A DNA stretch of 64,000 nucleotides from Corynebacterium sp. SCR221107 (GCF_027886475.1 NZ_CP115670.1:1922001-1986000); one strand, 5' to 3'; positions 2,722 through 63,188 are shown, counted from the first letter of the stretch. Numbers and translations: made by a program. Notes: generated from the sequence alone by a model not told the origin.

Positions 2722-4188
2722 CTAATCTTGGTATTTCTGGGACGGTTTCAGGCCGACAGCGACGGCCAAAGCATCAAGGTCCCAATGCGCCTCGATAACG
2801 TCGGCAAGCATGTCCAGCTGCGCTTCACGGGCGGCAGCGAAGCTGGTGTCATTGGCCAAAACGAATCCATAACGTCCGGAGAGCTCAGCAACCTCGCGCA
2901 GGAATTGTCTTCTGGACTCATCATGTTCCAGATGACCGTGCCGGTGGGTGCCGAAGCACGCACCGCTGCGCGATCCTTCCGCACCAATCCATGCGGGATC
3001 ACCCGAATATTCCACCCGACCGTGGTGCACCTCGTAGGCACCGTTGGGGTGGCGGATGAGGGTCTTTTCCGGGTGAAAAACGATGCGTGCGTCGAAGATG
3101 CCAAGCCCGTCAACGGGGTCGGGGCTCCCAGCCTCGACTGGATCGACGATGGTGGTACACATCATCTGGTAGCCGCCGCAGACCCCGAGAACCGGCTGCC
3201 CATTGCGCGCGCGATGCACGATTGCCTGTGCAATCCCCGTGTCTCTTATCCACTTGAGGTCGCTGAGCGTGGACTTGGAGCCGGGCACTACCGCAAGATC
3301 GGCATCGAGCACGTCGCGTGGGTCGTCGGTCCACACCACCGTGATTCCTGGCTCGCACGCCAACGCCTCGACATCGGTCGCGTTGGAGATCCGCGGCAGG
3401 CGCACGGCGGCGACCTTGAGCCTTTCCGTCCCCACGGGTGCCAACTTCGGGCCGACGGAGGTGCCTATGGCTGATTGCAGGGAATCTTCGGCATCTATCC
3501 ACAGCCCATTGACGAAGGGCAAGACTGCCACCGTAGGCACGCCGGTCATCGACTCCAGCTCTTCGAGCCCCGGTTTAAGGATCGACTCATCGCCACGGAA
3601 TTTATTGACCACGAATCCCTTGATCCTTGCCCGATCCGATGCGGAAACTATCTGGTGGGTGCCGTAGAAATGCGCCAGCACTCCCCCGCGGTCAATGTCA
3701 CCAACAAGAAACACCGGGAGATCGGCGAGCTCCGCGAGCCCAAAATTGGCGACGTCGGTTTCCCTCAGATTGATCTCCGCCGGCGAACCGGCGCCCTCAC
3801 AGATCACCAGATCATAGGCATCCTCCAGCTCTTCGAGGCAGGCCGCGGCCACCTCCCGAAGCTGGGTGCGGTGCTCGATGTAGTTTTTTGCCGAGACGTT
3901 GCCTCGGGCTTTCCCCTTGACTACTAATTGGCTGGTTCGATCGGAACCAGGCTTGAGCAGAATTGGGTTGAAGCTTGTCGACGGCACCAGGCCGCAGGCT
4001 GCAGCCTGCAGCGCCTGCGCGCGGCCGATTTCCCCGCCGTCTGGAGTAACCGCCGAGTTATTCGACATGTTCTGGGCTTTGAAGGGAGCAACCCTTAGCC
4101 CTCGTCTCGCAAAGGCCCTACATAATCCGGCAACGACGACCGACTTGCCCGCATCCGAGGTACATCCCGCCACCAAAAAAGCTGTCAT
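2722..4188 (-). CDS. cobQ: cobyric acid synthase CobQ
   Basis: Glutamine-dependent amidotransferase that amidates four carboxyls of adenosyl-cobyrinate a,c-diamide in cobalamin (B12) synthesis or remodelling. The 488 residues comprise an N-terminal dethiobiotin-synthetase-like ATPase domain ([17 protein letters not shown] at residues 6-22) and a C-terminal class I glutaminase domain with the nucleophile Cys337 in [11 protein letters not shown] and His residues in [10 protein letters not shown] near residue 420. No other cob genes are in the window, so it stands alone; some corynebacteria have only partial B12 pathways. The related MurT/GatD pair was considered, but the domain order and length fit CobQ. 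A copy of the CGTCGGCAAGCA repeat lies inside it (2799-2810), read as Leu-Ala-Asp. Confidence 0.9.
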
Positions 4189-4344
4189 AGGAAACTATCT
4201 TACAAACGGCAGCCTCAAGAACTGCCTCATCTCAAGGCCAACGCTGGCCTCGAGCACAGGTGGTTGCTCAACAGACCAGCGAGAAGCCGCCTTCGACTGG
4301 AAGCACCATGGTTGCCAACCACAGTGGGGAAGGCGACGGGTGAA

Positions 4345-4356
4345 CGTCGGAAAGCA
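4345..4356 (+). repeat. CGTCGGAAAGCA repeat, intergenic (map/cobQ)
   Basis: Exact copy of the window-wide 12-mer, 57 bp downstream of the map stop. No clear hairpin accompanies it. Confidence 0.8.
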
Positions 4357-4413
4357 CGATGCAACGCCAGCCAAGACCAGCCGTGTCCGTCTTGCGCTGC
4401 ATCATGGTGGGAC

Positions 4414-11507: not shown

Positions 11508-12142
11508 GGTCGCGCCCGTAGTCGCTGAGATGATTGGATAAGCCCCGTTGGGATTGCTAGTGGTGAAAGAATCGTTGGTCACCACTTCATTATGAACCAT
11601 GCCAGCGACAACGGTGGCTTCGCATCTGCCGGCATTGACGACTTGCCCGACCATCGTGTGTGTTGCTGTGCCAGCGACTCCTGAAGCATTCCGGAAATGA
11701 AAGAAATGACGAAACTTTCTATGGCTACGCATAACGAGCCGTGCGTTTTAATTCCGAAGCACACCCGCCCCGCATTGCTTACCGACGCTTCAGTGCAGGT
11801 CCCAATGAAGCTGGTGCAGGTTCGCAGACAATGAGTTCGTCTATACAGGTGATCACGAACGCTCGATTCCCGGTCACGGAAAATGCTACCCAGTTCCCAC
11901 TTCCTTGATTACCCACGCTAGTCACCCCCTATTGTGTACGTACTTTAGGTTGATGCCTCTACGCGTCCTCGCACTTTATCGGGTTGCTCCGATTTTTCGC
12001 CTCCACTTGTCCCCAAGAATGTCGCTTTAAGCTGCCGGATATGCGAAAATAGCCGTTGAATCAATAGAGGACGTTGCACGTAGGCACGGCTTGCAGAAAA
12101 TCGCCTTGCACGTACGTCGCAAGTGAGAATGAGGAGAAGAAC
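11508..12142. other. 635-bp divergent intergenic region dxr / DUF2631 gene
   Basis: Apart from one repeat copy at 11776, I see no gene, tRNA or clear hairpin. The dxr frame continues into it without resembling protein of the family. It must hold the promoters of both flanking divergent genes. Confidence 0.5.
11776..11787 (-). repeat. TGCTTACCGACG repeat, intergenic
   Basis: Variant of the window-wide repeat with A at the variable position (T on the other strand), 269 bp upstream of dxr. Confidence 0.7.
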
Positions 12143-12773: not shown

Positions 12774-12785
12774 CGTCGGTAAGCA
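12774..12785 (+). repeat. CGTCGGTAAGCA repeat abutting rlmN terminator
   Basis: On the minus strand the terminator hairpin is followed within 3-4 bases by TTGCTTACCGACGC, so the repeat forms the terminator's T-containing tail. Confidence 0.75.
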
Positions 12786-12842: not shown

Positions 12843-13940
12843 TTAGCGTTCTTCGGCGGCGAGCTGGCCGCAGGCGGCGGCGATCTCTTGCCCCTTGGTG
12901 TCACGCACGGTACACGGAACCCCCTGTGCGATCACGCGGCGCACGAACTCATCCTGACGCTCCTTGGGCGAAGCATCCCACTTCGAGCCCGGCGTTGGAT
13001 TAAGCGGAATGAGGTTAACGTGTACCTTCGAACCGAGCGCCTTGTGCAGCTTCTTGCCCAAAAGATCCGCGCGCCAGCCTTGATCATTGATGTCACGGAT
13101 GAGCGCATACTCGATGGATACACGCCGGCCGGACTTGTCCGCGTAATAGCGCGCGGCGTCGAGGACCTCGGCGACGGGATAGCGATTATTGACAGGCACG
13201 AGCGTATCGCGAAGCTCGTCGTCTGGCGTGTGCAAGGAAACCGCGAGGGTTACGGACAGGTCTTCGTCGGCAAGCTTGCGAATCAGCGGAGCTAGGCCCA
13301 CCGTGGAAACGGTGACGTTACGCTGTGAGATCCCAAAACCTTCCGGCACCGGCCGGGTGATCTGACGCACCGCGGACACCACTCGCTTGTAGTTGATAAG
13401 CGGCTCGCCCATGCCCATGAACACGATATTGGACAAGCGACCGCCCTCGGCAGCCATCGTGGCGGCGGCGGCACGGACCTGATCGACGATCTCGCCGGTA
13501 GAAAGGTTGCGATCAAGACCGCCCTGACCGGTCGCACAGAATGGGCATGCCATACCACAGCCAGCCTGGGAGGAAATACACAACGTCGCTCGGTCAGGGT
13601 AGCGCATCAGCACAGACTCCAGCAGCGTGCCATCATGCAACCGCCACAGCGTCTTTTGGGTCTCGCCGTCGTCGGCTTCCACCACGCGAACGGGAGTCAT
13701 CAGAGGTGGGAAAAGCCTGTCCGCAACGGCCTCACGCGCAGATTCCGGAAGATCAGTCATGGTACGCGGGTCCGCTTCCATGCGGCCGTAGTAATGTTTC
13801 GCCAGCTGGTTGGCGCGGAACTTGGGCAGGCCAATCTCTTGGAGTGCTTCCACCCGCTCATCCTGGGTAAGGTCAGCGAAATGCTTGGGAGGCATTTTGG
13901 CGCGCCCTGCGCCAAAATCGAGTGCTACTGGTTTTGCCAT
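12843..13940 (-). CDS. rlmN: dual-specificity 23S rRNA/tRNA adenine C2 methyltransferase RlmN
   Basis: Radical-SAM enzyme that methylates A2503 of 23S rRNA and A37 of some tRNAs. The cluster-binding CxxxCxxC is visible in [13 protein letters not shown], and catalytic Cys residues are expected at MACP-distant sites; one lies in [14 protein letters not shown] near the end. The start [12 protein letters not shown] gives 365 residues; the frame is open to 14168, but the extra codons include a translated repeat copy and do not look like protein. A repeat copy within the gene at 13265 encodes Leu-Ala-Asp. It converges on the DUF2631 gene, with a terminator for each strand between them. Confidence 0.93.
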
Positions 13941-14040: not shown

Positions 14041-14052
14041 TGCTTTCCGACG
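14041..14052 (-). repeat. TGCTTTCCGACG repeat, intergenic
   Basis: Exact copy followed by CCCACA, matching the GTGGG variant of the extended motif (read on the other strand). It is about 100 bp upstream of rlmN. Confidence 0.8.
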
Positions 14053-17745: not shown

Positions 17746-18573
17746 TTAGTGTTGGCCAACCTCGAAGCGAGAGAAAGCGGTGATGGTGACACCAGCGTCT
17801 TCCATGAGCTTCTGAACGGTCTTCTTGTTGTCAGCAACGGAAGGCTGCTCGAGCAGGACAACGTCCTTGTAAAAGCCGTTGAGGCGACCCTCGACGATCT
17901 TCGGGATAGCCTTCTCCGGCTTGCCCTCTTCGCGGGTGATCTGCTCAGCGATGGAACGCTCCTTCTCAACGACCTCAGCCGGAACGTCCTCACGGGTCAG
18001 GTAGGAAGCCTTCAAAGCGGCAACCTGCATGGCGGCTGCGTGTGCAGCCTCCTTGGCAGCGTCACCCTCGCCCTCGTAGGCAACCAGGACGCCGACTGCC
18101 GGCGGCAGGTCAGCGGAGCGGTGGTGCAGGTAAACGGAGAGGTTTGCGCCCTCGAGGGTGACGGCGCGACGCAGCTCAAGCTTCTCACCGATCTTTGCGG
18201 ACAGCTCCTGGATGGCCTCTGCGGCAGTCTTGCCGTCGACGTCAGCGGCAGCGAGCTCCTCAGCAGAGTTAGCCTTGACTGCTGCAGCAGCGTCGGCAAC
18301 CTTCTGAGCGAACTCCTTGAACTCAGCGTTCTTTGCAACGAAGTCGGTCTCGGAGTTGATCTCAACCATGGTGTTGCCGGAAACGGCAATCAGGCCCTCG
18401 GTTGCGTTGCGCTCTGCGCGCTTTCCGACGTCCTTAGCGCCCTTGATGCGCAGGACCTCGACAGCCTTGTCGAAGTCTCCACCGGTCTCCTCCAGAGCCT
18501 TCTTACAGTCCAGCATACCGGAACCGGTGATCTCGCGGAGCTTCTTAACGTCAGCAGCGGTGTAGTTCGCCAT
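17746..18573 (-). CDS. tsf: translation elongation factor Ts
   Basis: Nucleotide-exchange factor for EF-Tu. The 275-residue protein begins [20 protein letters not shown], an N-terminal UBA-like domain with the signature [16 protein letters not shown]. The [10 protein letters not shown] motif (core domain, EF-Tu contact) follows, and it ends [25 protein letters not shown] site precedes the ATG. It pairs with rpsB upstream, but here the 359-bp gap between them holds a strong hairpin and a repeat copy. Confidence 0.95.
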
Positions 18574-18768: not shown

Positions 18769-18780
18769 CGTCGGCAAGCA
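18769..18780 (+). repeat. CGTCGGCAAGCA repeat between rpsB and tsf
   Basis: Preceded by CTATAGA, the TAGRCG form of the extended motif. It lies 57 bp beyond the rpsB terminator in the minus direction. Confidence 0.75.
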
Positions 18781-19745: not shown

Positions 19746-20350
19746 GGTGCTTCCTTTCTAAAGTTCATATAGATTCGGTTACTTACATATTGCGCAGGTT
19801 CTCCCTACGCCCTAGCCGACATCACCGCGCCCGCACCCTGCCTTTCGGCGAGGGACCAACGCGCACGCGGTATCGCGATGCCTGCGCGAATTAAGCAGCG
19901 CCTTGTGCTTTTGCTTTCCGACGATCACCGCCGCAGCCAAATGCAAAGGCCACCTCCCCGGTACGAGCCCAGGGCGGCAGCCAAAAAGTCTTTTCCGACA
20001 CTGCTAACCGGCAAGTTTAGCCCAACCACCCCCAAATACCAAAAATCGCAACACTGTGCCAGAAATACATTTCGGCTCGCCGGTGGTGCTTTGATTTTTC
20101 CCAGGGCTATCCACAATGAGACAGGTCCGAGATGCAAGCACCCTTGTGTTTCGCCCACGTCTATGTTTGAGGTGCACCGAATTGGGAATTTCCCCAGCTA
20201 GCTTGCCCCTTAGTTGCATCCAATACGGCGTGCATCGGCCAGGCCGGAAGTGCTAGTTTTATTCACGATAGGCTTGGGTGGGGACACTTATCCACAAGCA
20301 GCCCCCAGGCGCGCGGGCAGTGACGAAAACATGCCGGTAGCAAGGAAACT
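19746..20350. other. 605-bp divergent intergenic region rpsB / M23 gene
   Basis: Holds the rpsB promoter and leader. The only recognisable elements are a repeat copy at 19912 with a T-rich flank and single DnaA-box-like TTATCCACA at 20288-20296. The several short frames seen are not convincing genes. Confidence 0.5.
19912..19923 (-). repeat. TGCTTTCCGACG repeat, upstream of rpsB
   Basis: Exact copy preceded by CTTT, the T-rich flank seen at terminator-associated copies, although no hairpin is visible here. Confidence 0.8.
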
Positions 20351-25823: not shown

Positions 25824-25835
25824 CGTCGGAAAGCA
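25824..25835 (+). repeat. CGTCGGAAAGCA repeat at the DUF2469 terminator
   Basis: On the minus strand, hairpin, six Ts, then GCTTTCCGACGACC. The T-run runs straight into the repeat. Confidence 0.85.
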
Positions 25836-40451: not shown

Positions 40452-40463
40452 TGCTTGCCGACG
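40452..40463 (-). repeat. TGCTTGCCGACG repeat, just before tex start
   Basis: Its edge lies 5 bp upstream of the tex ATG at 40446, where a Shine-Dalgarno sequence would be expected; another reason to suspect the ATG at 40437. Confidence 0.75.
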
Positions 40464-42389: not shown

Positions 42390-42401
42390 TGCTTGCCGAC
42401 G
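42390..42401 (-). repeat. TGCTTGCCGACG repeat between rimM and cupin
   Basis: Preceded by ACTTT and followed by CCCACC. It lies 64 bp upstream of rimM. Confidence 0.75.
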
Positions 42402-43791: not shown

Positions 43792-43803
43792 CGTCGGAAA
43801 GCA
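43792..43803 (+). repeat. CGTCGGAAAGCA repeat 6 bp after ffh stop
   Basis: Preceded by CCTGTAGA (the same form as at thiO) and followed by AAGAAA. Confidence 0.85.
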
Positions 43804-45450: not shown

Positions 45451-45462
45451 CGTCGGCAAGCG
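45451..45462 (+). repeat. CCGTAGGCGTCGGCAAGCG repeat after glnD
   Basis: Long form spanning 45444-45462, 24 bp after the glnD stop and before ffh. Confidence 0.8.
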
Positions 45463-45485: not shown

Positions 45486-47630
45486 CTAGCGGTTTGCCAG
45501 CGCTTTGGACACTTCCCGCTCCACGACGGCGCGGTCGAAGCCCGGCTCGAGGGCACACTGGACGATCATGGTGGCGCCGGGGTTGTGCATTTTCAGCCAT
45601 CGAAGCCGCGGCAACACCCCGATGAGAGTGCCGAGCGCGCCACGCCGATCGGTGGTCCGAACCTCGAGGACGTCCTCGTCCCAGAAGGTGGCAGTTAGCC
45701 CTCCCCCGATCGGCGGGATCGCGGAAAACACCCCGGACAGGTAGGTCTGGCGCAGCTCGTCTTCGTCGTAGCCGGTGCCGAGCGTGTTGTATACGCGCAT
45801 CGACAGCTCGACGCGCCGGTCGTCGGGCACATCGGCGTCCTCCGGATGCACGACGAGGCTGGCCTCGTCAATGTTCCAGCTCTTATTCGCCAAGATGGCA
45901 AAGACGCGCACGCTTTCCCGCAGATAGCTTCCTCGCCAGCCGAGCGTTGCCGTCGTTTCGGCCTCAGAGGTCATTGCCCTTCGCTTATCGACGGCCAAGG
46001 TCAGCGGACCAGAGGTGGTCACCACCGGCGGGGTTGGGGTGATGCGGTTCAGGCGCGCCCGCGCGCGCGAGCACAGGGTGCGCAAGCCCATACGCAGTGC
46101 TGGGCTAAACACGCCAGGACCAGTACCCAGCGAGTCGGCCTCCACCAGTGCTTCCATGAGATCGACGGTCAGCACGTCGTAGCCGAGCGCGTCGAGCATG
46201 GCAGCCAGCGCCTCATCGGAGGTAGGGTCCATGGTGGTCGCGATCTGCGGGATGCGGGTGTGCTGCGCGACGAGCGTTTCCACTACCCGCTCGTCCTGAG
46301 GGCTAAGCCCCAAACGTTGCGCCGCCCGCTTGACGAACTCGGCACCGACCTCCTCGTGCGGGCGATCATAACCCTTTCCGATGTCGTGGTAGAGCGCCGC
46401 AAGGTAGAGCAAGTCAGGGCGGGCAACATTGACGCCCTGGGCGGCACAGTTGGCGACCACCACCAGCGAGTGCTGGTCGATGGTGTGAATGTGGATGGGT
46501 TCGCGAGGCATGAGCCCTCGAATGTGCTCCCACTCTGGAACCAGGCCGTCCCACAGTCCATATTCTTCGAGCTTGGCCACCACCCGGGCAGTGTTTTCTG
46601 AGGAGCTCAACACCGTGATAAAGTCGCTGGCGACCACGGGGGTCAAGCGCTCGGGAAGCGGTGGCACCGTCTGCAGTCTCTTCCACGTCGCCTCGGTCAC
46701 GGGCAAGCCCGTGCGTGATGCCGCGGCGGCCACGCGCAGCGGTAGGCCGGGGTCAGTGAGATCAGGCTTGCGCGAGAGCGTGATCTCCCCGTCCACGTCG
46801 ACGACGTCCGCGTCGATGGGCCTGCGGACGGTGCGTCGGATACCGGTTCGGCGAGGCAACACGTTGCGGGCGAGGTTGAGGGAGGTAGTCAACTCGTCGT
46901 CGATGCGTTTGGATGCCTGCGCAAGCGCGCGCGATAGCTCGTAGCGGTCGGCGTAGCCGAGGTCCAACGCGACATCCACGGCAAACTCAGGATCAAGCAC
47001 ATCGCGGGAGCGACCGGCGTGCATGTGTAACAGCGTTCGAGTGTCGAGCAGGAGGCGCCGTTCGTCGTCAAGCTGGGCGCGGTTGCAGAGGTTGGCCAGC
47101 GCGAGGGCGTTGATGAGATCGAGGTCGCGCAGTCCACCCCGGCCGTGTTTGAGGTCGGGGCGCGTCATCGTCACCACTGAGCCGGAGCGACGCCACCTGG
47201 CGATGGCCGTATCGACGACAGAGTTGAAGTTCTTCTTTACTTCACGCCGCCAGGTGTCGAGCACCATTCGTCGCGTCTTCAGCGAAAGCTCCTCGTCGCC
47301 CGCCACATGACGCAGGTCGAGTAGGGCAAGTGCTGCTGTCGCGTCCTCGGATATCATGGCCGCGCACTCGTCAGGGGTGCGCACGGAGTAGTCCAGGCGC
47401 ATCTTGGCATCCCAGATCGGGTACCACACTTGTTCGACTTCTGCTTGTTCGAGGTCGCCCGAGTGAATGAGGACCAGATCGAGGTCGGAGTACGGGGTCA
47501 TCTCGTCGCGGGCGAGCGAGCCGGTGGCTGCCAAGGCTGTGCCAGGGGGTAAAACCAAAGAACCCAGCAGGGACAAGGCCTTGTTGTTGGCCTCGGTCCT
47601 CAGCTGGGCTGGGTAGAAGGTGGTGTTCAC
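45486..47630 (-). CDS. glnD: PII nucleotidylyltransferase GlnD
   Basis: Senses glutamine and modifies GlnK; in C. glutamicum the modification is adenylylation rather than uridylylation. Start GTG 47630 (NTTFYPAQLRTEANNKAL), giving 714 residues; the frame is open to 47750. The nucleotidyltransferase domain has GSLARDEMTPYSDLDLVLI (GSxxxR and DxD), the HD domain has YLAALYHDIGKGYDRPHEE, and two ACT domains fill the C-terminus. It follows glnK by 137 bp in the amtB-glnK-glnD set. Confidence 0.94.
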   Translation of the reverse strand: MNTTFYPAQLRTEANNKALSLLGSLVLPPGTALAATGSLARDEMTPYSDLDLVLIHSGDLEQAEVEQVWYPIWDAKMRLDYSVRTPDECAAMISEDATAALALLDLRHVAGDEELSLKTRRMVLDTWRREVKKNFNSVVDTAIARWRRSGSVVTMTRPDLKHGRGGLRDLDLINALALANLCNRAQLDDERRLLLDTRTLLHMHAGRSRDVLDPEFAVDVALDLGYADRYELSRALAQASKRIDDELTTSLNLARNVLPRRTGIRRTVRRPIDADVVDVDGEITLSRKPDLTDPGLPLRVAAAASRTGLPVTEATWKRLQTVPPLPERLTPVVASDFITVLSSSENTARVVAKLEEYGLWDGLVPEWEHIRGLMPREPIHIHTIDQHSLVVVANCAAQGVNVARPDLLYLAALYHDIGKGYDRPHEEVGAEFVKRAAQRLGLSPQDERVVETLVAQHTRIPQIATTMDPTSDEALAAMLDALGYDVLTVDLMEALVEADSLGTGPGVFSPALRMGLRTLCSRARARLNRITPTPPVVTTSGPLTLAVDKRRAMTSEAETTATLGWRGSYLRESVRVFAILANKSWNIDEASLVVHPEDADVPDDRRVELSMRVYNTLGTGYDEDELRQTYLSGVFSAIPPIGGGLTATFWDEDVLEVRTTDRRGALGTLIGVLPRLRWLKMHNPGATMIVQCALEPGFDRAVVEREVSKALANR

Positions 47631-47727: not shown

Positions 47728-47739
47728 CGTCGGCAAGCA
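47728..47739 (+). repeat. CGTCGGCAAGCA repeat between glnK and glnD
   Basis: Preceded by GCGTAGGG, a near long form; 28 bp after the glnK stop. Confidence 0.75.
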
Positions 47740-48373: not shown

Positions 48374-48385
48374 CGCTTTCCGACG
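48374..48385 (-). repeat. CGCTTTCCGACG repeat next to a hairpin
   Basis: It directly abuts the perfect hairpin at 48386-48409. Confidence 0.75.
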
Positions 48386-50404: not shown

Positions 50405-52267
50405 TTACACCCCACCGAGTAAGGCATCCACGAATCCTTCAACCTCAAACGGCGCAAGGTGGTCGGCACCTTCGCCGAGCCCCACGAGTTTCACGGGCAC
50501 CCCGAGCTCGTTTTGAACACTAAAGACAATGCCGCCCTTCGCGGTGCCGTCGAGCTTCGTCAAGGCGACACCAGTGATTTGTACCGCCTTGGCAAACTCC
50601 TTGGCCTGCATCATGCCATTTTGGCCGGTGGTGGCGTCAAGTACGAGCAGAACTTCGTCGACCACTGTCTTCTTTTCGACCACTCGTTTGACCTTGCCAA
50701 GCTGGTCCATGAGGTTAGCGGAGTTGTGCAGGCGTCCGGCGGTATCAATAAGCACGACGTCGGCACCGCGACTAATTCCCTCGCTGACTGCGTCGAAAGC
50801 CACCGATGCGGGATCGGCGCCTTCCTTGCCACGCACCGTCACCGCGCCTACCCGTCGACCCCACGTTTCGAGCTGGTCGGCTGCCGCCGCACGGAAGGTA
50901 TCGGCCGCACCGAGCACCACGCTGTGCCCCATCGACACCAATACGCGCGCAAGCTTGCCGGTGGTGGTCGTCTTTCCTGTGCCATTGACACCGACAACGA
51001 GGATGACGGCCGGCTTGCCCTCATACGGCATGGCTTTGATGGAACGGTCCATCTCGGGATGCGCAGCCTTAATGAGGCATTCGCGCAGCATCGCGCGCGC
51101 CTCCGCCTCGCTGGTAACGCCACGCTCGGCGATCATCTCACGCAGCTCATCGACGACGGTGGCGGTCGTTCCAGAGCCCAGATCAGCCTGCACGAGCTGA
51201 TCCTCGATGTCTTCCCAGGCATCGTCGTCAAGGTCGCCTGCTGAGATCATGCCCAAGACAGACTTGCCGAACACGTTTTGCGAACGCGACAGGCGACCAC
51301 GCAAACGCCCGAGGCGACCTGCCGCCGGATCAATTTCGTCAAGCTCGGTGCCCGCCGAGGTCGGTGTGGGCTGGGTCGGTGCATCCACTTCGTGCCTTGC
51401 CGACGCAGCCGCCTCCGCAACAGCAGCTGCCGCAGCAGCCGCTTCAGCAGCTTCTTTCGCCTGTGCCTCCGCCTTCGCCTCTTCCTCCGCAGCGGCCTTC
51501 GCCTCGGCCTCGGCCTTCAGGCGTGCTTGCTCGGCAGCCTTTGCCGCCGCCTCGGCTGCTGCCTTTTCTTTTGCGGCTTCTTCTGCGGCGGCCTTTTCCT
51601 TGGCTACCCGACGAGCCTCTGCCTCAGCTTTGGCCTTGGCCTCCGCTTCTGCAGCGTCCTGGGCGGCCTGAGCTTCAGCCTGGGCCTGGGCCTCTGCCTC
51701 GCTGCGCGCTTTTTCTTCTGCTGCCTCTTTCGCCGCCTTGGCCTCGGCGGCCTTCTTCTCCGCTTCCTCTTTCTCGGTTAGGCGACGCGGTGCTGCCTCT
51801 GCTTCTGCCTTAGCCTCCTTTTCTGCCTGTGCTGCTGCCTGTGCTTCGGCGTCGGCAACAGCCCTCTCCTGAGGGTGGTCTTCCGGAGTTGGATCGGGAG
51901 TGAATTCCTCCAGCTGTTCGAAGGTACCCGGCGCGGCCTCATCGTCCTTGTGTGGCTGCGCGCTGGCTACGTCGTTAAGCGTGCTACCGCCTGGGGTCTG
52001 CAGCGGCGGGGAAACCGGGATCTTTTCGGGCTCCGGCTTGGCGGGAGCGAAGTTGAACCCCCCTTGGGCTTGGTAATTTCCAGACTTTTCCTGCTGGGTG
52101 AGTTCCTTTTGTTCCTTTTCTTCCTTTGGAGTGAAGCTGACCTTCTTGGCCTTGTTGCGGTTGAGTCCCACGACCAAGACTACGACGGCCAACACCACCA
52201 CGGCGACAACGATGCCGATAATCACAGAGGTATTCATGCCATCCATACTGGCATTAACGGCAAGCAT
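50405..52267 (-). CDS. ftsY: SRP receptor FtsY with long acidic coiled-coil A domain
   Basis: Membrane-associated GTPase pairing with Ffh. The ATG at 52267 has AAAGG 5 nt before it. A single N-terminal helix (VIIGIVVAVVVLAVVVLVVGL, residues ~14-34) anchors it. Residues ~40-310 are an Ala/Glu/Lys-rich, probably coiled-coil acidic domain, and the NG domain follows with VVGVNGTGKTTTTGKLARVL, DTAGRL and TKLDGTAKGG. The A domain is long compared with the usual ~200 residues. Confidence 0.94.
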   Translation of the reverse strand: MLAVNASMDGMNTSVIIGIVVAVVVLAVVVLVVGLNRNKAKKVSFTPKEEKEQKELTQQEKSGNYQAQGGFNFAPAKPEPEKIPVSPPLQTPGGSTLNDVASAQPHKDDEAAPGTFEQLEEFTPDPTPEDHPQERAVADAEAQAAAQAEKEAKAEAEAAPRRLTEKEEAEKKAAEAKAAKEAAEEKARSEAEAQAQAEAQAAQDAAEAEAKAKAEAEARRVAKEKAAAEEAAKEKAAAEAAAKAAEQARLKAEAEAKAAAEEEAKAEAQAKEAAEAAAAAAAVAEAAASARHEVDAPTQPTPTSAGTELDEIDPAAGRLGRLRGRLSRSQNVFGKSVLGMISAGDLDDDAWEDIEDQLVQADLGSGTTATVVDELREMIAERGVTSEAEARAMLRECLIKAAHPEMDRSIKAMPYEGKPAVILVVGVNGTGKTTTTGKLARVLVSMGHSVVLGAADTFRAAAADQLETWGRRVGAVTVRGKEGADPASVAFDAVSEGISRGADVVLIDTAGRLHNSANLMDQLGKVKRVVEKKTVVDEVLLVLDATTGQNGMMQAKEFAKAVQITGVALTKLDGTAKGGIVFSVQNELGVPVKLVGLGEGADHLAPFEVEGFVDALLGGV

Positions 52268-52386: not shown

Positions 52387-55300
52387 TTAGCCGCCAATTC
52401 CTTGGTGTTTGACGGCCAAGACCATAGCTTCGGCAGACACGAGATCGGAGGTGACCAGATCTGGGACGATGTCAGCCAGTTTTGCCCAACCACCTGTGAC
52501 TGCATCCAGGGTCTTCGTGGAGGTAATGAGGCCGTGGGCGTGCATGCGGGCAGCGAGGGCGAGCACGAGCGAGACCACCGGTGCCAGCGACCAGACGTTG
52601 TCCCGGGCATCGGTATCTACCCCATCGAGCTTGTCGAAACGAACGCGGGCCATCGCGTACAAGGTGCGATTCGTGCTGCGCAATGTGCGCAACAAAGTAA
52701 CCGCCGGCTGGATGAGGGATTCGCTCGAAAGCAGGCGTGACAACTGCTCACGGTGATTGAAAGTCTCAAAAACAGCCAGAAGACGCGAGCCATCATCCAT
52801 GATCGCGCCCGGAACGATGTTGGCGCCTGCGAAGAACATATCCAGGAGGTTTCTTTGCTGGGCCGCGTCCATGCTGGCGATTGCCACGGTGGAACGGTCG
52901 ATACAGGCGGTGTCCAAGGTGGTGTCGCGGCCGGTTCGCAAAATATCGATGAGGTTGTCACCCGCCAGCTCCGATAGCTGTGCCAAAAGCGCCTTGACCT
53001 GCGGGTTGATGGCTCGAGCGGCAAACGCCGCTACGACCGAGTCGGCCAACTTGCGCGCCTTCGGATTGGCAGGCAACTCCGCTGGGTCGTCCTCGGGCTC
53101 TTGACTGAGAATGCGGTCGATCTCGCCCATGATTTCCAAGGCGCCGATCCACGTGGCTCGGTGGAAATCCTCCGCCTCGCCATCGGTGTCCTCTGACAAG
53201 AACACACAGCGTGCCAACGAGGTTTCCACAATCTTACCGGGCTGTTTCTCGGCGGGCACCAGACTGTTCGATAAGCCCGCAAGCGCTGCGAACGGCTGCG
53301 CGCGTAGCACGGCATGGACCGCCTTGCGGGCAGGTCCGGTTGCCTGCCCCATGGTGACCATGTCCCACAACAGCGGCATGACGCTGGCGTCTGTCGGCAC
53401 CTCCTCGCTTGCACCAGACAAGAATGCAGCCAGGTCTTTCAGTTGTGGATCCGGGTCGGCGAAGTAGCCCTCCTGATTGATGATGAACGCCGATTCGCCT
53501 GGGGCGACTGGGGCGTGCAGCGTCATGAAGCGATCGAGGGTATGCAGGCTCACGGCGAGCGCGCCCGCGCCCACCAAGGAATCGGGAAGTTCGATTGCCT
53601 CATTGGCCACTGCGAGGGTGCGCGCCGGCGCCCACGGTGCTGTCAGCGGCCATACCCAAGCACCGACGTTTTCGCCGACGCCGGGGGCTACGAGGCGCTT
53701 CGGGTTGTCTGGGTCCGCGGAAACGGTAATCTCTGCTGTGCTCTGGATGTCGGCGAGAGCCACCGATACGCGGCGGTCGGTCCGCGGATCCGTCCATTCA
53801 AGGTCAATACGTCCCGACGGCATGACCGCCGCCGAGGTGGCGATCCCCTTCAGCGGAGCCAGGTAGGTAAACCCTCCGTCGTTGGAGTGTAGCTTCGTCG
53901 TCTTCACAGGTGCACCATGATGGTTGCGCACAGCCACCTTCGGGTCGATGAGTGAACCGGCGGCACGAATGCGCAGCTTTCCCTCGGGGTCAAGCACACG
54001 GGGACGCAACATCAAACGGCTTGCCCGCCACATTGGGGGCTCAGTCGTCACTGGAAGCTCGAAGGTAAGCCGGGGCGGACTGAAGCGAAGCGGAAGTTGG
54101 TCGCCTTCCTCGGTGGCCACCAAGAAATCAGCGCCGGCGTCGAGCGGGCCGACGACGACGGTGGCAGGTTCGCTGAGGAATTCCTTCTCCCCCGGCTTCA
54201 TGGTGAGAACTGCATCAGACAGGCCGCCTCCGGAAGGGATGCGGAAGGATCGGCTTGCCCCCGAGATGTCGATGACAGCGCGCGCGCCTTCCACGATGGC
54301 AAATTCGTGGCGGAAGGATTCATTGCGCGGCCCGCGCACGCGCACGAGGTACTCGCCCACCCACGGGGCGTCGTAAAGCTCTGGGTCGAACACATGGAAC
54401 ACTCCGCCTTCGGCCGGTACTTCCAACGGTTCTGGCTGGGTGATTTCCTCGCCCGCGTTGGACACTCCTGCGTAGGAAGAAATCGACAGGTACCAGGTTT
54501 CAGTTTGACCCGACAACGTCGGCGGGAACTCTGCCAATAGCGACTGGTTGTACACCTCCAAGCCGGATGAGGAGTTGAGACAGTCGATTGGCTGGCCGGG
54601 GTTGCGGAAGATGACGCGCTGGCGCGGGTCGATGGAGCGCACCGTATCCATGGACACATTAGCCCCCGGTGCGACCGCTGCCAGTGAGGCTGCCGACTCC
54701 ACGTTAAGGGCGTGGCAGCGCCAACCATCCCAGCCCTCGACGGCGCTGGTGGCGTCGGCAAGCAAATCGGTACCGGCAACGACGTCGCGCAGGCTGACTT
54801 CCTCGGGGACAATGACGCGGAGGAATTGGTGGTGCAGGCTGACCTTGTCGGTGACGTTGTTGCCGCTGCGCGTAAAGATAAGGATCGCGTCATCGGAGTT
54901 GATCACCGGCACCGTCCAGGTGATCCCGTGCGTCAGGTCCTGAACAGTGACCTCGCGAACTGGATGATCAAGGGTGATGTCGAGTGACTCGGAGAAGCCG
55001 GAGGTGTCCCCCCACACGCTGCCGGTGCGATACACCTTCGTCGTGCCTTCCACGGACACACGCCAGGTCACCTCGGGGGGCAGCCCCTCTTCGGCTTCGG
55101 GGAGGCGCTGCTCGGGCAGACGCAGGCAGATGCGGCCACGGTTGTCGTCGAAAAGGATGCGCGGGCGCATTTCGCGGCTGGCCACGCCCACGGCGGATTC
55201 GCGGTTGACCGTGCCCACTGGACGCTCACGTAGCTCTCCTGCCACTGTTTCCTCGATCTGCGCTGGCAGGACGGGGCTCAGCTTCGAACGGTTGCGGTCG

Positions 55301-56246: not shown

Positions 56247-56258
56247 TGCTTTCCGACG
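56247..56258 (-). repeat. TGCTTTCCGACG repeat between smc and the 1207-residue protein gene
   Basis: Followed by CCCAG; lies 24 bp after the smc stop (in the minus direction). Confidence 0.8.
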
Positions 56259-56281: not shown

Positions 56282-59200
56282 CTACCTTGTGCCTTCCGCG
56301 TGGTCATTGTCCGCGTTCGTGGTTGCCGCTTCGTGTGATGGTGGCTCATGTAATGGTGGCTCGGAAGGCTTCTCCACAGCGCGCATGCGCTGGGAGATCA
56401 CCCTGGTCACGCCGTCGCCACGCATCGTCACGCCATAGAGGACGTTGGCCACGTCCATCGTCGGCTTTTGGTGGGTGATGACGATGAGCTGTGAATCGTT
56501 GCGCAGTTGTTCAAACAGGGCGATCAAGCGGCGCAGGTTCACGTCGTCAAGCGCGGCCTCGACCTCGTCCATGACGTAGAACGGCGACGGGCGCGCCCTA
56601 AAGATCGCGACCAGCATCGCGAGCGCGGTCAGCGACTTCTCGCCGCCGGACAGCAGCGAAAGCCGTTTGACCTTCTTGCCCGGCGGGCGTGCCTCAACCT
56701 CGATGCCTGTCGCCAGCATGTCATCGGGATCGGTAAGCACCAGGCGGCCTTCGCCACCCGGGAACAGCGTGTCGAAGACCCTCGGGAATTCAGCCTCCAC
56801 ATCATGCCAGGCGTCGGTAAACAATTGCAGGATTCGATCGTCGACGTCGTCGATGACACCGATCAGGTCCTTGCGCGCCTGCTCGACGTCGGCAAGCTGC
56901 GTGGATAAGAACTCGTAGCGTTCCTCTAAGGCCTTGAACTCCTCGAGGGCCAAGGGGTTCACCTTGCCCAGCGCCGTAAGGTCCTTTTCGGCCTGCTTCG
57001 CGCGGGCTCTTTCGGCCTGCACATCGAAATCGGGGCCCGGAGTGTAATCCTGCAAGATGTCGGCAACGGAGATGCCTAGTTGTTCAACAAGCTTGGCCTG
57101 AGCTTCCTCCATGCGCACCTGGGCCTGCGATTGTGCGATTTCCATGGCATGCGCGTTATCACTAAGGCGATCGAGCTGGCTGCGCAGCGCATGGACGGCA
57201 TCCTTACTTCGGGCGACTTTTGCTGTGCAGGCATTGCGCGCGGCCACTGCCTGCTCCCGCTCGGCGGTAGCACGTTCGAGCGCATCGCCGACTCGGGCAC
57301 CCACCTCGCTGGACTTGCGGGCCACCACCTCAGCCAACGCCGCCTGTTGCCGCCTGCGTTGCATCGTCTGCTCGTGGCGGGCTTTGGCTTGGCGCTCGTG
57401 GTGTGCTTGCCGACGCAGACTGTCGCCGCGTCCGCGCGCCTGATCTGCTTTGTCGCGCGCCGACTGCAGCGCCAGGCTCGCCTCCATCTCCATCGCGCGT
57501 ATCTGGGCTAGCGCCGCGGCGGCCTCGTCGCGCTCGGCGGTCGACGGCTCCAGGTCTGGCTCGTCGTCGTTGACACGGGCAAGCCGGTCGCGGGTGTGCT
57601 CCAATTGTTCTTTAAGCTGTGCAAGCCGAACGTCGGAGTCGGTAGCGCGCGCCGCGATGCGCTCGTGCTCCTGCATCTGCGATTGCAGTTGCTTGGACAG
57701 CCGCGCGTGGTCACGCTGGAGTGCCTGAATCTGCGACTCCTGATCGCGCAGCGCTGCCGTCGCTCGCGCGGCGTGGACTCGTGCATCGCTGGCGGCAGTC
57801 TGGGCACCATCGAACGTGCCCGACAGCTCCTCAAGCTGGGCTCGGGCGAGTGTGAGCGCCTGAGTGGCCTGCTCGATGTCGGCGAAGATCTCCACGGAGG
57901 TCGTTACCGTTTTCCCGAGCTGAATCCAGCCATGTCCCGCTAGGATTCCCGAGGTTGTCACAGCCCGCAGGCGTGGTTCTGCCTCAATGACTGCCCTGGC
58001 CTGGGCGAGCGATTCGGTGACCACGACGTCGGCAAGCAGACGGGTGATGGCAGCCTCAACGTGGGGTTGTAGCCGCAGGGCGTCGAGTAGCCAGGTCACC
58101 CCCGCAGGCAGGTCTATATCTAGGCGCCATCCTTGCCCTGGCGTGGATTCTATAAACGTGGTGCGCGCGATGTTGAGCTCTTCCGCACGAGCAATCACCT
58201 CATCAAGCTCGCCGGTGACCGCTTCGGCGACACTGCCTAGGGCCGCTGCGGTGGCTTGTTCGAATCCTCGCTCCACCCCCATCGCTTGCGACAGCGTGCC
58301 AAAAGTGCCCAGCGCCTCAAATTCTCCCGATTGAGTTGGGTTCGGGACCGTCGACTGCAAAGTTTCAATGCGCGACTCGAGGCGAGAAACATCACGTTCC
58401 CTATCGCGCTGGTGGGCACGCAGTTGTTCCAAGCGTTTATCGGCGGCCTCCGACTCGGCAGCAGCGCGCACATGTGCCTCGCGCGCACTCGCCGCCTCGG
58501 CCTCGTATTCGTCAAGCGCGTCGGTGACGGATTGCAGCTCTTGTTCGAGTGCGCGCACGCGGGCACGGGATTGTTCCACCACCTCCTCGTGGCGGGCAAT
58601 CTCGTTCTCAACGCCTGTCACCTGGGCGCTCAACGACTCCTCGGCAGCGACCAAGCGAACTACGCCTTCGCGGCGATCGGCGATCGCACGCACCCGAGCG
58701 AGATGCTCCCGATCGGCCTCGTGGGCAGCCTGCTCGCGGTCGGCGCGTTCCTCGCGAATTCCTTCGAGACGTTCGGAGGCGATCTCCACGGCCTGCTCGA
58801 GTTGCTCGAGTTCGGCATCTGCCCGGTCGGCGCGAGCGGCCAACTCATCGGGGTCGGGGCCAAGGTATTCCACGATCTGCAGACCCTCGACGCGATCCCT
58901 GGCGATACGCATCGTGGCAGCCACGCGTTCTGCTAGGGCGGAAAGCTCGAACCAGAGTTGCTGGGCTTGCTCGGCGGCCGGTGTTGCTAGCGCTAGTTCC
59001 TGTTCGGCTTCGAGCTGGTGTCCTGTCGCTTCCTCGAGCTGTTCAGTAAGAGTTTCGACCTGCTCGAGAAGCATCTGGGCCTGCGACTGGGTATTGGCGA
59101 GCTTTTCTTGCAGCTCGACGAGCTGGTGGCCTGCGAGCTTCAGGCGGGCATCACGCAGGTCCGCCTGAACCGTAGCGGCGCGCTTGGCGGCCTCCGCTTG

Positions 59201-60308: not shown

Positions 60309-60320
60309 TGCTTTCCGACG
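60309..60320 (-). repeat. TGCTTTCCGACG repeat, upstream of acyP
   Basis: Preceded by CTTT. Paired with the copy at 60482 in opposite orientation, 161 bp apart in the 303-bp gap, which holds no gene. Confidence 0.8.
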
Positions 60321-60481: not shown

Positions 60482-60493
60482 CGTCGGAAAGCA
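60482..60493 (+). repeat. CGTCGGAAAGCA repeat at the symporter terminator
   Basis: Preceded by CCGATAGG and followed by A6. On the minus strand: hairpin, T6, GCTTTCCGACG. Confidence 0.85.
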
Positions 60494-60524: not shown

Positions 60525-60541
60525 TAGCAAGCAAGTAAAAG

Positions 60542-62017
60542 CTAGGAATCGTGGACGGAGGTAATAACCTTGCCACCGCGGTGGGTGACCGGATCAGAGC
60601 CATCCCAGCAGCTGATGTTTGCGACCTCGGGAAGCATGTCGCGGTGGAAAACCGGGTCGTAGCCTTGGGCCTTTTGCAGCGAGAAATTCTTTAGCAGCTT
60701 CACGGCCACTCCCCCGAGCGGAACGATGGCGATCAAGTTGATCAGCACCATGATGGCCGCGAACGTATCCCCCAGAGCCCATACCAACGGAACAGAGCCG
60801 ATGGCACCACCGAACACGCACAACATCACGATGACGCGGAATGCCGTCATGACGGAGGTGGATTGGGTGAAGTACTCCAAGTTCGCCTGCGCAAGGTAGT
60901 AATTGCCAATCACCGAGGAAAACGCGAGGAAGAACAAGATCAGCGTGATGAAGTGGATACCCCAATCTCCCACCTCTGCGGCCAGGGCTTGCTGGGTCAA
61001 AGAGGCGCCTTGCACCTTCTGCCCATAGGTGGGGTTATTGAGCAAAATGATGAAGGCAGTAACAGAACAGACGAGGAGAGTGTCGAAGTATACGCCTAGC
61101 GTTTGAACCAATCCTTGCTTGACCGGATGGGACACCGTCGCGGTTGCCGCAGCATTCGGGGCGGAGCCCTGACCTGCTTCGTTGGAGAACAAGCCACGAC
61201 GCATGCCGTTCATGAAGGCCGCGCCGACGGTGGCTCCGGCGACTTCCTTCAAGCCCAAGGCCTGGCCGACGATGTCGGCAAACATGCCGGGAATCTTGTC
61301 CACGTTCATGACTACAACAACGATGCCGATGACAACGTACAGGACCGCCATGACGGGAACAATGACCTGCGTAAAGTTAGCGATGCGGTGGACGCCGCCG
61401 AAAATGATCGAACCCGTGATCGCAGCCAAGATAATGCCAACTGCTGCCTTGAAGCCTAGGGAGTCAGTGTTAAACGAGGTGCCCACGGACTCCGCAATCG
61501 AGTTGGCCTGGATGGCGTTGTACACGAAGCCATAGGTGATGGTGATGGCAAAGCCGAAGATAACCGCCAAGCCCCGCCAGTTGAGGCCTTTGGTCATGTA
61601 GTAGGCAGGCCCGCCGCGATAGGTGCCATCCGGTTCCTTTTCTTTCCACAGCTGCGCAAGCGTCGACTCCACGAAGGCGGTGGCGCCACCTAGCAGGGCG
61701 ATCATCCACATCCAAAAGACAGCGCCCGGGCCCCCCAAAGTGATTGCAACGGCAACGCCGGCGACGTTGCCCGTGCCCACGCGCGAGGCAGCCGAAATCG
61801 TAAAGGCCTTGAACGCAGAAATCCCCTGGACGTCGGTGTCCGGGTCGACGACCTCGTTGCGCTCGGTCACTGCCCGAAACATCTCCGGAATCATGCGGAT
61901 CTGCACGACGATGGTGCGCACGGCGAAGTACAACCCCGCTGCGATCAGCAGCCACGGGATGACCAACCAGAGGTTGTCGTTGATCACCCCGGTAATGAAG
62001 TTTTCAAAACTTGTCAT
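60542..62017 (-). CDS. alanine/glycine:cation symporter (AGCS family)
   Basis: Sodium- or proton-coupled uptake of alanine/glycine. 491 residues with about 10-11 transmembrane helices. AGCS motifs are visible: GTGNVAGVAVAITLGGPGAVFWMWMIALLGGATAFVESTLAQ (described in part), GGPAYYMTKGLNWRGLA and EAGQGSAPNAAATA. ATG 62017 opens MTSFENFITGVINDN. No strong substrate prediction beyond small neutral amino acids. Confidence 0.92.
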   Translation of the reverse strand: MTSFENFITGVINDNLWLVIPWLLIAAGLYFAVRTIVVQIRMIPEMFRAVTERNEVVDPDTDVQGISAFKAFTISAASRVGTGNVAGVAVAITLGGPGAVFWMWMIALLGGATAFVESTLAQLWKEKEPDGTYRGGPAYYMTKGLNWRGLAVIFGFAITITYGFVYNAIQANSIAESVGTSFNTDSLGFKAAVGIILAAITGSIIFGGVHRIANFTQVIVPVMAVLYVVIGIVVVVMNVDKIPGMFADIVGQALGLKEVAGATVGAAFMNGMRRGLFSNEAGQGSAPNAAATATVSHPVKQGLVQTLGVYFDTLLVCSVTAFIILLNNPTYGQKVQGASLTQQALAAEVGDWGIHFITLILFFLAFSSVIGNYYLAQANLEYFTQSTSVMTAFRVIVMLCVFGGAIGSVPLVWALGDTFAAIMVLINLIAIVPLGGVAVKLLKNFSLQKAQGYDPVFHRDMLPEVANISCWDGSDPVTHRGGKVITSVHDS

Positions 62018-62285
62018 AGTGGGAGATGCTACCGGTTAGCAGCACTGGAGAATAAAATCAATCGACCGTTTGAAATTAAGGGATCCGTCAACCAGAACTC
62101 CTCCCTTGTACCGCACTCCCCGCTAGAGCAGGTAGACCGATAAAGTCTCAATCCACCTCACTCGGTCACGACAGGCAAGGAATATTCCACACCCGTCCAA
62201 AAATACCCCCACATACCCCCACCGATTATCGTGCGAGGGGGCCCTAAATTATCACTGCGTCTTCATCAATATCGAACAACGCAGC

Positions 62286-63188
62286 TTAATGGAGCCGCTG
62301 GCACGCCGGACACAGATGACTAGAACGGTTACCGAACTGTTCTTTGACGATGAGCGTGCCACACCGCGCACACGGTTGCCCCTGCTGCCCGTAGGCATCG
62401 AGCTCAATGTCGAAATATCCGGACTGACCGTTGACGTTGACATACAGTTCGTCGAAGCTGGTGCCGCCCTTAGCCAACGCTGCGGTCATGACCTCAATGC
62501 CATTAAGGAGCAGGGACTGAATGACCGGAACGGCCATTCGATTGGCCTTTTGCCTTGGGTGAATCTGCGTGCGCCATAGCATTTCGTCTGCGTAGATGTT
62601 GCCGATTCCGGAGACCACCTCCTGATCGAGCAGGAGCTTCTTTATGTCGGTTTTGCGACGCTTCATACGACGCGCCAGCGCAGAGATGTCGACAGTGCGA
62701 TCCAAGAGATCGGGGGCGATATGCACAAGCGATAAAGGAACGTCCCCGTTCGCGGTCTCCATGATGTCGCTGGGCTGCCAGTAACCAAAGGTGCGCTGAT
62801 CGACGAACCAGATCTCTTGACCGTCGGAAAGCGTGGCCCGAATCCGCAAGTGCCGGAGATTCTTGTCGTCAAGCCCCGCATGGTTGGGTTGAAGGGGCAG
62901 CTCGTAGCGCGATTGGATCTCGTCGGTGTTTTTTATGAGCATCTGGCCGCTCATGCCGAGGTGCACGACCAACGCCGCCCCGTCGTCAAGCACAAACCAC
63001 ATGAACTTACCGCGTCGTTCCACGGAATGGATCTCATGGCCGGCAAGAAAGGCGGCGACCTCCGCGTCGCTGCCCTCATAGTTGCGGATGGCGCGCGGGT
63101 TAAATACTTCCACGTTATTAAAGCGCGCACCCTGCACATGATCGCTAAGTCCCCTGCGGACGACCTCCACCTCGGGTAGTTCGGGCAT
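62286..63188 (-). CDS. mutM: formamidopyrimidine-DNA glycosylase
   Basis: Excises 8-oxoguanine and formamidopyrimidines with AP-lyase activity. The N-terminal PELPEVEVVRRGL supplies the catalytic Pro2 and Glu3; a Lys in EIHSVERRGKFMWF is the third residue. The C-terminal zinc finger is CARCGTLIVKEQFGNRSSHLCPAC. A repeat copy at 62822-62833 lies within (LSDG). It follows rnc (window edge) in the usual order, with 313 bp between them. Confidence 0.95.
   Translation of the reverse strand: MPELPEVEVVRRGLSDHVQGARFNNVEVFNPRAIRNYEGSDAEVAAFLAGHEIHSVERRGKFMWFVLDDGAALVVHLGMSGQMLIKNTDEIQSRYELPLQPNHAGLDDKNLRHLRIRATLSDGQEIWFVDQRTFGYWQPSDIMETANGDVPLSLVHIAPDLLDRTVDISALARRMKRRKTDIKKLLLDQEVVSGIGNIYADEMLWRTQIHPRQKANRMAVPVIQSLLLNGIEVMTAALAKGGTSFDELYVNVNGQSGYFDIELDAYGQQGQPCARCGTLIVKEQFGNRSSHLCPACQRLH

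Follow-up and report, generated by a model that had tools for sequence, protein, structure and literature searches.

The repeated word in the window

The stretch of DNA analyzed here (the window) comprises 64,000 nucleotides of the chromosome of Corynebacterium sp. SCR221107 (GCF_027886475.1, NZ_CP115670.1:1922001-1986000). It encodes DprA and a ComM/YifB-like protein, and it carries many copies of a short word, CGTCGGNAAGC, which we consider a likely DNA uptake sequence (DUS). We found 40 exact copies, of which the plus strand has 25 and the minus strand 15 (Table 1), while 100 dinucleotide shuffles of the window gave a mean of 0.32 and a maximum of 3. The over-representation noticed in the initial annotation is therefore confirmed and is stronger than stated there. 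Every one of its 25 plus-strand positions was exact, the 12 on the minus strand were each one base low, and its total of 37 missed three minus-strand copies (marked in Table 1). With our own hexamer gene caller, used here instead of a standard program, 20 copies fall between genes, as had been annotated, and 20 rather than 17 within them, 15 in antisense and 5 in sense orientation. Among the 40 copies, 26 have an A at position 12 and 36 have an A or a C at position 7. Another 17 copies carry an A or a T at position 6, variants that are tolerated over the genome (see below). The 25:15 strand bias fits the preference of the genic copies for the antisense orientation, combined with the location of most genes of the window on the minus strand.

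Table 1. Copies of the word, tolerated variants and competence-related genes in the window (positions counted from its first base)
Feature	Position	Strand	Remarks
Core copy CGTCGGCAAGC	2799..2809	+	genic antisense
Core copy CGTCGGAAAGC	4345..4355	+	intergenic
Core copy CGTCGGTAAGC	11777..11787	-	intergenic
Core copy CGTCGGTAAGC	12774..12784	+	intergenic
Core copy CGTCGGCAAGC	13265..13275	+	genic antisense
Core copy CGTCGGAAAGC	14042..14052	-	intergenic
Core copy CGTCGGAAAGC	18420..18430	-	genic sense; missed in initial annotation
Core copy CGTCGGCAAGC	18769..18779	+	intergenic
Core copy CGTCGGAAAGC	19913..19923	-	intergenic
Core copy CGTCGGCAAGC	24357..24367	+	antisense within comM-like gene
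Core copy CGTCGGCAAGC	24528..24538	-	sense within comM-like gene
Core copy CGTCGGAAAGC	25824..25834	+	intergenic
Core copy CGTCGGTAAGC	26549..26559	+	genic antisense
Core copy CGTCGGAAAGC	28109..28119	+	intergenic
Core copy CGTCGGAAAGC	28708..28718	-	intergenic
Core copy CGTCGGCAAGC	30000..30010	-	genic antisense; missed in initial annotation
Core copy CGTCGGAAAGC	31473..31483	+	intergenic
Core copy CGTCGGCAAGC	32089..32099	-	genic antisense; missed in initial annotation
Core copy CGTCGGGAAGC	32673..32683	+	intergenic
Core copy CGTCGGAAAGC	34530..34540	+	genic sense
Core copy CGTCGGAAAGC	36335..36345	-	genic sense
Core copy CGTCGGCAAGC	37369..37379	+	genic antisense
Core copy CGTCGGCAAGC	38148..38158	+	genic antisense
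Core copy CGTCGGAAAGC	38415..38425	+	genic antisense
Core copy CGTCGGCAAGC	39654..39664	+	genic antisense
Core copy CGTCGGCAAGC	40453..40463	-	intergenic
Core copy CGTCGGCAAGC	40614..40624	+	genic antisense
Core copy CGTCGGCAAGC	42391..42401	-	intergenic
Core copy CGTCGGAAAGC	43792..43802	+	intergenic
Core copy CGTCGGCAAGC	45451..45461	+	intergenic
Core copy CGTCGGCAAGC	47728..47738	+	intergenic
Core copy CGTCGGAAAGC	48375..48385	-	intergenic
Core copy CGTCGGCAAGC	54753..54763	+	genic antisense
Core copy CGTCGGAAAGC	56248..56258	-	intergenic
Core copy CGTCGGCAAGC	56887..56897	+	genic antisense
Core copy CGTCGGCAAGC	57405..57415	-	genic sense
Core copy CGTCGGCAAGC	58027..58037	+	genic antisense
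Core copy CGTCGGAAAGC	60310..60320	-	intergenic
Core copy CGTCGGAAAGC	60482..60492	+	intergenic
Core copy CGTCGGAAAGC	62822..62832	+	genic antisense
Tolerated variant CGTCGTCAAGC	1725..1735	-	A/T at position 6
Tolerated variant CGTCGACAAGC	3973..3983	-	
Tolerated variant CGTCGATAAGC	23606..23616	-	within comM-like gene
Tolerated variant CGTCGATAAGC	31006..31016	-	
Tolerated variant CGTCGAAAAGC	31753..31763	-	
Tolerated variant CGTCGAGAAGC	34047..34057	-	
Tolerated variant CGTCGTAAAGC	34396..34406	-	
Tolerated variant CGTCGATAAGC	36623..36633	+	
Tolerated variant CGTCGTGAAGC	37924..37934	+	
Tolerated variant CGTCGAGAAGC	40065..40075	+	
Tolerated variant CGTCGTCAAGC	41512..41522	+	
Tolerated variant CGTCGATAAGC	45983..45993	-	
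Tolerated variant CGTCGTCAAGC	47063..47073	+	
Tolerated variant CGTCGTTAAGC	51970..51980	+	
Tolerated variant CGTCGTAAAGC	54369..54379	+	
Tolerated variant CGTCGTCAAGC	56542..56552	+	
Tolerated variant CGTCGTCAAGC	62981..62991	+	
dprA (DNA-processing protein; transformation/recombination mediator)	22327..23541	-	TIGR00732, 200.4 bits (cut-off 191.15); PF02481
comM/YifB-family AAA ATPase	23538..25082	-	TIGR00368, 432 bits (cut-off 362.4)

Abundance, base tolerance and layout over the genome

The genome, a single contig of 3,043,024 bases, contains 1,012 copies of CGTCGGNAAGC and only 24 of the reversed pattern. The copies are spread through the whole of it and not confined to the window, and with 503 on one strand and 509 on the other the term "oriented" of the initial annotation finds no support at this scale. 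If A, G or T (D) is allowed at position 6 (CGTCGDNAAGC) the count rises to 1,398, compared to 60 for the control. For detailed analysis we used 40 stretches of 20 kb across the chromosome together with the window, 864 kb of the 3.04 Mb in total, in which the word appears 298 times where 4.2 are expected (71 times the expectation). Among the single-base changes in this sample, the A and T forms of position 6 reached 22 and 18 times expectation and all the others between 0 and 5 times. Practically no change is tolerated at positions 1, 4, 5, 10 and 11 (for example, a T at position 5 was seen 0 times with 2.1 expected) and there is slight tolerance at positions 8 and 9. From this profile we take the functional word to be CGTCG-D-N-AAGC, which is not palindromic.

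The 126 copies outside genes have preferred flanks as well. Upstream there is a C at -7 (74%), a G at -5 (66%), a T at -4 (65%) and purines at -3, -2 and -1 (about 90, 92 and 79%), and downstream the core is followed by A in 80, 59, 44, 53 and 42% of the cases. These preferences are weaker for the genic copies, and little information is found beyond some 7 bases upstream and 5 bases downstream of the core. Numerous and short copies could be the debris of a repeat or mobile element, such as repetitive extragenic palindromes or miniature inverted-repeat transposable elements, but we find this scarcely credible given such limited flanks, copies placed within many different genes and conserved to the point at orthologous sites, and their scarcity in the mobile DNA examined (see below).

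Along the chromosome the spacing between copies is random (coefficient of variation 1.00), and gaps under 150 bp are not in excess (15 found and 13 expected, 10 of the 15 inverted). The 40 stretches have a mean of 6.45 copies per 20 kb, and their counts do not evidently cluster around the origin or the terminus. Stretches of higher G+C tend to be denser in copies (Spearman 0.45, p 0.0035), a correlation that may in part reflect the islands described below. With the arms placed by eye from the GC skew, which puts the origin close to base 1 and the terminus at about 1.62 Mb, 136 copies point with the leading and 162 with the lagging strand (p = 0.15), or 121:137 when the window is excluded. The strand bias of the window might suggest an FtsK-orienting (KOPS-like) or other polar segregation signal. 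Nevertheless, the equal strands of the genome and the lack of significant arm polarity in the sample, together with the dependence of the window bias on gene direction, leave practically no room for it.

A signal at the level of DNA

In the 864 kb, 125 of the 298 copies lie outside called genes, plus one across a gene edge, while the non-coding share of this sample is about 20%, a figure that may be an overestimate, in which case the intergenic enrichment would be conservative. Gaps between convergent genes are the richest per kb (22 copies in 17.5 kb), with 20 copies in 38.0 kb of divergent gaps and 78 in 105 kb of gaps between genes of the same direction, where 47 are sense and 31 antisense. 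Within genes 124 of 172 copies are antisense, and 114 of the 172 use one frame that is read as Leu-(NCC codon)-Asp on the coding strand. This preferred frame would fit a by-product of coding (frequent codon pairs, those of Val-Gly-Lys in sense or Leu-x-Asp in antisense). However, when synonymous codons were shuffled, keeping the called proteins and their codon usage and redrawing the non-coding DNA by a first-order Markov chain, 8 shuffles of 120 kb gave 1.1 copies, compared to 52 in the actual sequence. A terminator or other RNA element fares no better. Copies between genes of the same direction occur in both orientations, there is no excess of close pairs and no Rfam family matches the window at the gathering threshold. 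With so many copies outside genes, coding or RNA is in our view an explanation of negligible probability.

Comparison with close relatives (six genomes at two loci and five at a third, 87-97.5% identity) indicates that the word is held in place at the DNA level. Intact copies were retained in 378 of 400 pairwise comparisons, versus 826 of 1,523 for permuted words of the same letters, counts that rest on 18 reference sites (17 of them aligning to at least one relative). Within the same antisense frame, retention was 233 of 250, versus 124 of 277 for the permuted words. A fixed base had changed in some relative at 5 of the 17 sites, and among these five, two changes had produced the A that position 6 tolerates and one the base found in the other dialect (see below). 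The free position 7 does vary among relatives.

Scarcity in mobile DNA

Only one of the 40 stretches had no copy at all (L006, genome 760001-780000), and it codes for a TrwC-type relaxase, a TraG/TraD coupling protein, an M23/SLT cell-wall enzyme, a type I methylase with its specificity subunit and an rve transposase. Another stretch (L004, genome 456001-476000) had two copies. Island genes occupy L004:8000-19500 and include a BREX BrxC-like ATPase and an Eco57I/N6 methylase, with a phage integrase nearby, and one of the two copies is located inside the integrase gene. Both stretches are clear islands, L006 being of the conjugative type. L027, with two copies, has a Mu-type transposase amid ordinary genes, and L035 has one copy (two proteins checked by Pfam). 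The Pfam check covered these four of the six lowest-count stretches (7, 4, 4 and 2 proteins in L006, L004, L027 and L035), the other two being L022 and L036.

Similarly, eight plasmids of Corynebacterium (316 kb in total, with four represented by their first 50 kb) contain a single CGTCGGNAAGC and three copies of CATCGNNAAGC, the dialect described in the next section. At the density of the window's genome, used here in place of that of the plasmid hosts, 105 CGTCGGNAAGC would be expected, and only 13 at 100 copies per 2.5 Mb, so that the scarcity in plasmids is supportive only. In this small sample of mobile DNA the word is depleted, which speaks against the origin of all copies from one mobile element, an eventuality raised in the initial annotation.

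Chi sites share with the word, as do KOPS, that they are short, abundant and chromosome-wide, and Chi is depleted from foreign DNA too. A Chi-like recombination hotspot would be read by an end-processing enzyme, AdnAB or RecBCD, and the genome does encode two adjacent AdnAB-like PDDEXK_1 proteins (open frames of 1,050 and 1,156 aa at G000:C1:731393-735438). Still, we regard a Chi-like role as very unlikely. The Chi sites described so far show a strong leading-strand bias, unlike the copies here, and RecC was found in none of the 29 genomes of the genus searched, whereas PDDEXK_1 matches appeared in all 29, with or without the word. Nor is Chi known for enrichment between genes or for a change of dialect between related species.

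The word across the genus

We surveyed 201 Corynebacterium genomes, a sample of a larger genus. Of these, 112 had at least 100 copies of CGTCGGNAAGC, 140 had at least 40 and 58 had no more than 30, while the reversed control had a mean of 10 and a maximum of 27. Strands were equal over the whole set (15,745:15,709). An unbiased k-mer search of the first seven low-count genomes revealed in four of them (G111, G094, G144 and G053) a dialect changed in one base, CATCGNNAAGC. It also behaves as a DNA-level signal, with 50 of 88 copies in the same antisense frame and 34 copies versus 1.7 under the codon shuffle in G111 and 40 versus 6.2 in G144, the two genomes tested. In a tally that considered the larger values only, CATCGNNAAGCA was found at 195-413 copies in 10 of the 201 genomes. 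The same ten have 9-77 CGTCGGNAAGC, and wherever CGTCGGNAAGC reached at least 100 copies CATCGNNAAGCA did not exceed 49. Neither word was found in 49 genomes (CGTCGGNAAGC at most 30 and CATCGNNAAGCA under 60), and a few were intermediate or mixed for the dialect (G084 with 62, G138 with 87 and G143 with 413 and 77 of the other word). The word is present, in the same or a one-base-changed form, in most sampled relatives. A scan of named species with a TadA alignment gave one Corynebacterium among 80 loci, so that the dialects are not linked here to named species. The best TadA match with a name, a locus from a Corynebacterium metagenome-assembled genome (57% identity), has 4 copies in 21 kb.

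To place these changes we used a tree of the helicase located beside the tad locus (21 genomes and two outgroup rows), the backbone of which is resolved in part. Carriers of CGTCGG appear in both deep branches, CATCG falls within one of them and the word-free genomes are scattered. Two changes would be required for CATCG with this topology, and a single origin is also possible. From these placements CGTCGG is probably old and CATCG derived, and loss has probably been repeated.

Candidates for further dialects were also examined. In G152 the word CGTCGGACTT was a candidate for a third dialect, but it was not conspicuous when 140 kb were compared with codon-shuffled sequence, and no other dialect stood out under this null in G014, G171 or G162. 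The composition of G147 and G039 (70-75% G+C) is too biased for a dialect to be called. Separately, GCGGCGTCC is over-represented in G147, a word-free genome of 70% G+C, with 73 copies versus 19 under codon shuffle (L064-L066, L085 and L105-L107), which reflects either another chromosome word or the G+C bias.

Competence machinery

The initial annotation, having seen dprA and comM in the window, proposed comEA, comEC and pilus genes as something to look for elsewhere in the genome, and all of them are there. The genes comEA and comEC are adjacent. ComEA has the helix-hairpin-helix and exceeds the TIGR00426 cut-off, and ComEC (PF03772) is a short form of 468 aa (L047:10646-12052) in which the Competence domain of Pfam is the only one at the threshold used. 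A Tad/Flp pilus locus codes for Ssd/TadZ, TadA, two T2SSF proteins, a DUF4244 pilin, a TadE-like protein (its score just under the model cut-off) and an Rv3654c-like protein, and lies beside a DECH helicase. This gene set makes an uptake role possible rather than demonstrating it. The doubt of the initial annotation about dprA and comM as evidence was right, and it extends to comEA, comEC and the Tad locus, which are also found in word-free relatives; because of this the machinery is no proof of an uptake role.

By their position the TadE-like and Rv3654c-like proteins, the DUF4244 pilin and ComEA are candidate receptors, the independent dialect changes being too few for covariation. As genes that could discriminate carriers from non-carriers we considered ComEC, TadA, the prepilin peptidase and comEA, which are universal or nearly so where searched. 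Neither the length of ComEC nor a metallo-beta-lactamase motif separated the two groups cleanly by eye, and the metallo-beta-lactamase motif HxHxDH was missing from the ComEC frame at each of the 25 loci examined.

Other features of the window

Two features unconnected with the word were noticed. The DnaA-box-like nonamer TTATCCACA forms two close inverted pairs at 25705-25739 and 37077-37112, minus then plus and about 26 bp apart, both intergenic by our gene calls. A ThiC gene is located at 28930-30789, and the absence of Rfam matches in the window at the gathering threshold includes the thiamine pyrophosphate riboswitch.

Comparison with known systems and interpretation

Neisserial DUS are present in thousands of copies, and their distribution has been used to find conjugative islands (PMC3630211, PMC7371117). 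The word resembles them in being non-palindromic and of about 10 bases, in having both intergenic and genic copies and in dialects of a few bases that follow phylogeny (PMC3630211, PMC7371117). There is even a likeness in sequence, since the DUS GCCGTCTGAA (PMC6370729) and CGTCGGAA have 7 of 8 bases in common by eye. This is probably chance, because the T of CTG, the essential core of the DUS (PMC3630211), falls at position 5, where it is not tolerated here. The word can hence be discarded as a neisserial DUS proper, that is, the GCCGTCTGAA family with CTG core and ComP. It differs besides in its number (about 1,000 copies and not several thousand), in the lack of excess of close pairs, of which inverted ones are common for Neisseria, in the pilus (Tad/Flp and not type IVa), in the phylum, and in the receptor, which is ComP there, no ComP-like receptor having been identified here.

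The uptake signal sequence (USS) of Haemophilus influenzae combines a core with flanking preferences that include AT-rich segments (PMC7811141), as the word combines its core with an A-rich 3' flank. The USS is kept by molecular drive, and it is under-represented both in segments of recent acquisition and in coding sequence under constraint (PMC7811141). Its receptor is predicted to be ComN (PMC12616744), and there as here the receptor is a candidate. Sequence and host are unrelated and the flank information of the word is modest, so that by sequence it is neither a neisserial DUS nor a Haemophilus USS. Closer in lineage, Micrococcus luteus (Actinomycetota), the actinobacterial case that has been studied, has the same kind of gene set. 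It possesses comEA and comEC homologues, lacks a comGA-F cluster and requires Flp pili for transformation (PMC6370729, PMC4322843), the difference being that neither 'uptake sequence' nor 'uptake signal' is mentioned in PMC4322843.

Taken together, the abundance of the word, its symmetry between strands, the absence of significant polarity, the location at permissive sites, the scarcity in mobile DNA, the retention at orthologous sites and the hardly overlapping dialects form the pattern known from uptake-sequence systems and predicted by molecular drive through biased uptake (PMC7811141, PMC3630211, PMC7371117), and the likeness to such systems is thus well supported. The initial annotation had compared the repeat to the DUS and USS as a DNA-level signal. 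That comparison has held in all these aspects, intergenic enrichment included, and failed only for an excess of inverted pairs. We therefore think it likely that the word serves as a DNA uptake sequence, by which cells would recognize DNA of their own kind in natural transformation.

Several observations weigh against this reading. ComEC was found in 200 of 201 genomes, the prepilin peptidase in 199 of 201 and a TadA-type ATPase in 69 of 69, in every case regardless of the word. All 25 loci examined had open comEA and comEC frames, including 14 whose genomes lack both words, and among the machinery genes searched there was none whose presence tracks the word. Outside the genus, in 140 genomes from 30 genera of the same family, the word was at most 4.7 times the control (131 vs. 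28, in one 4.5-Mb genome), far less than in the carriers, and its largest count was 147, with 55 for the control, an excess for which coding in G+C-rich genomes may account. Among the open-literature matches listed (titles and abstract starts, most subscription papers being outside) there was no report of natural transformation in Corynebacterium nor of an uptake sequence in this genus or any other actinobacterium. To these have to be added the ordinary number of close pairs, the few sites behind the conservation counts, the copy inside an integrase gene and the low plasmid expectation at the lesser density. On the other hand, word-free species with the machinery are no contradiction, because competence without uptake preference is the usual case (PMC7811141).

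A different possibility is that selection on the chromosome keeps the word, either as a non-polar site for a chromosome-organizing or nucleoid protein or as a word of the kind of HIP1, a cyanobacterial word of unknown function. The random genome-wide spread and strong conservation would fit, as would the scarcity in recently acquired DNA and the failure of competence genes to separate carriers from non-carriers. We consider it unlikely, though it is the most serious of the alternatives. Near-background counts of both words in 49 of the 201 genomes and one-base dialects that hardly overlap would be unusual for an essential function, there is no evident concentration near origin or terminus, and the word is non-palindromic and sharply specific at five of its positions.

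If the word is a DNA uptake sequence, a surface part of the uptake machine, for which the best candidates are a minor Tad/Flp pilin or else ComEA, would bind double-stranded DNA best when it carries CGTCGDNAAGC, with weaker help from the upstream C-N-G-T-R-R-R and the A-rich downstream flank. The bound DNA would be drawn through the envelope, one strand entering via ComEC and being handed by DprA to RecA, and DNA from the same or like-tagged species would be taken up preferentially. Uptake bias and recombination together would act as a molecular drive in which word-bearing alleles are re-imported more often. Copies would accumulate where they do little harm (between genes, and in one antisense frame within them), would stay at orthologous places and would be scarce in DNA that moves by other routes. 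A change in the preference of the receptor would make the whole genome drift to a new dialect such as CATCGNNAAGC, and with the preference lost the words would decay.

Uptake preferences had been described for two families, Pasteurellaceae and Neisseriaceae (PMC7811141, 2020), and as far as the literature found goes this is most likely the first DNA uptake sequence outside them. With somewhat less confidence, we favor a broader picture: a third, independently evolved system and the first in a Gram-positive-lineage phylum, working with a Tad/Flp pilus at a mycolic-acid outer envelope, ancestral to much of Corynebacterium, and partitioning the genus into gene-exchange groups through one or more switches of dialect and through recurrent loss.

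In being diderm, corynebacteria resemble the Gram-negative carriers of DUS and USS. If this interpretation is true, biased DNA uptake has arisen anew with another pilus and another envelope. The word would then be a marker of gene-exchange partners in a genus whose members include soil, food, skin and clinical bacteria, and would provide a means to spot foreign islands and to predict which species are naturally transformable.

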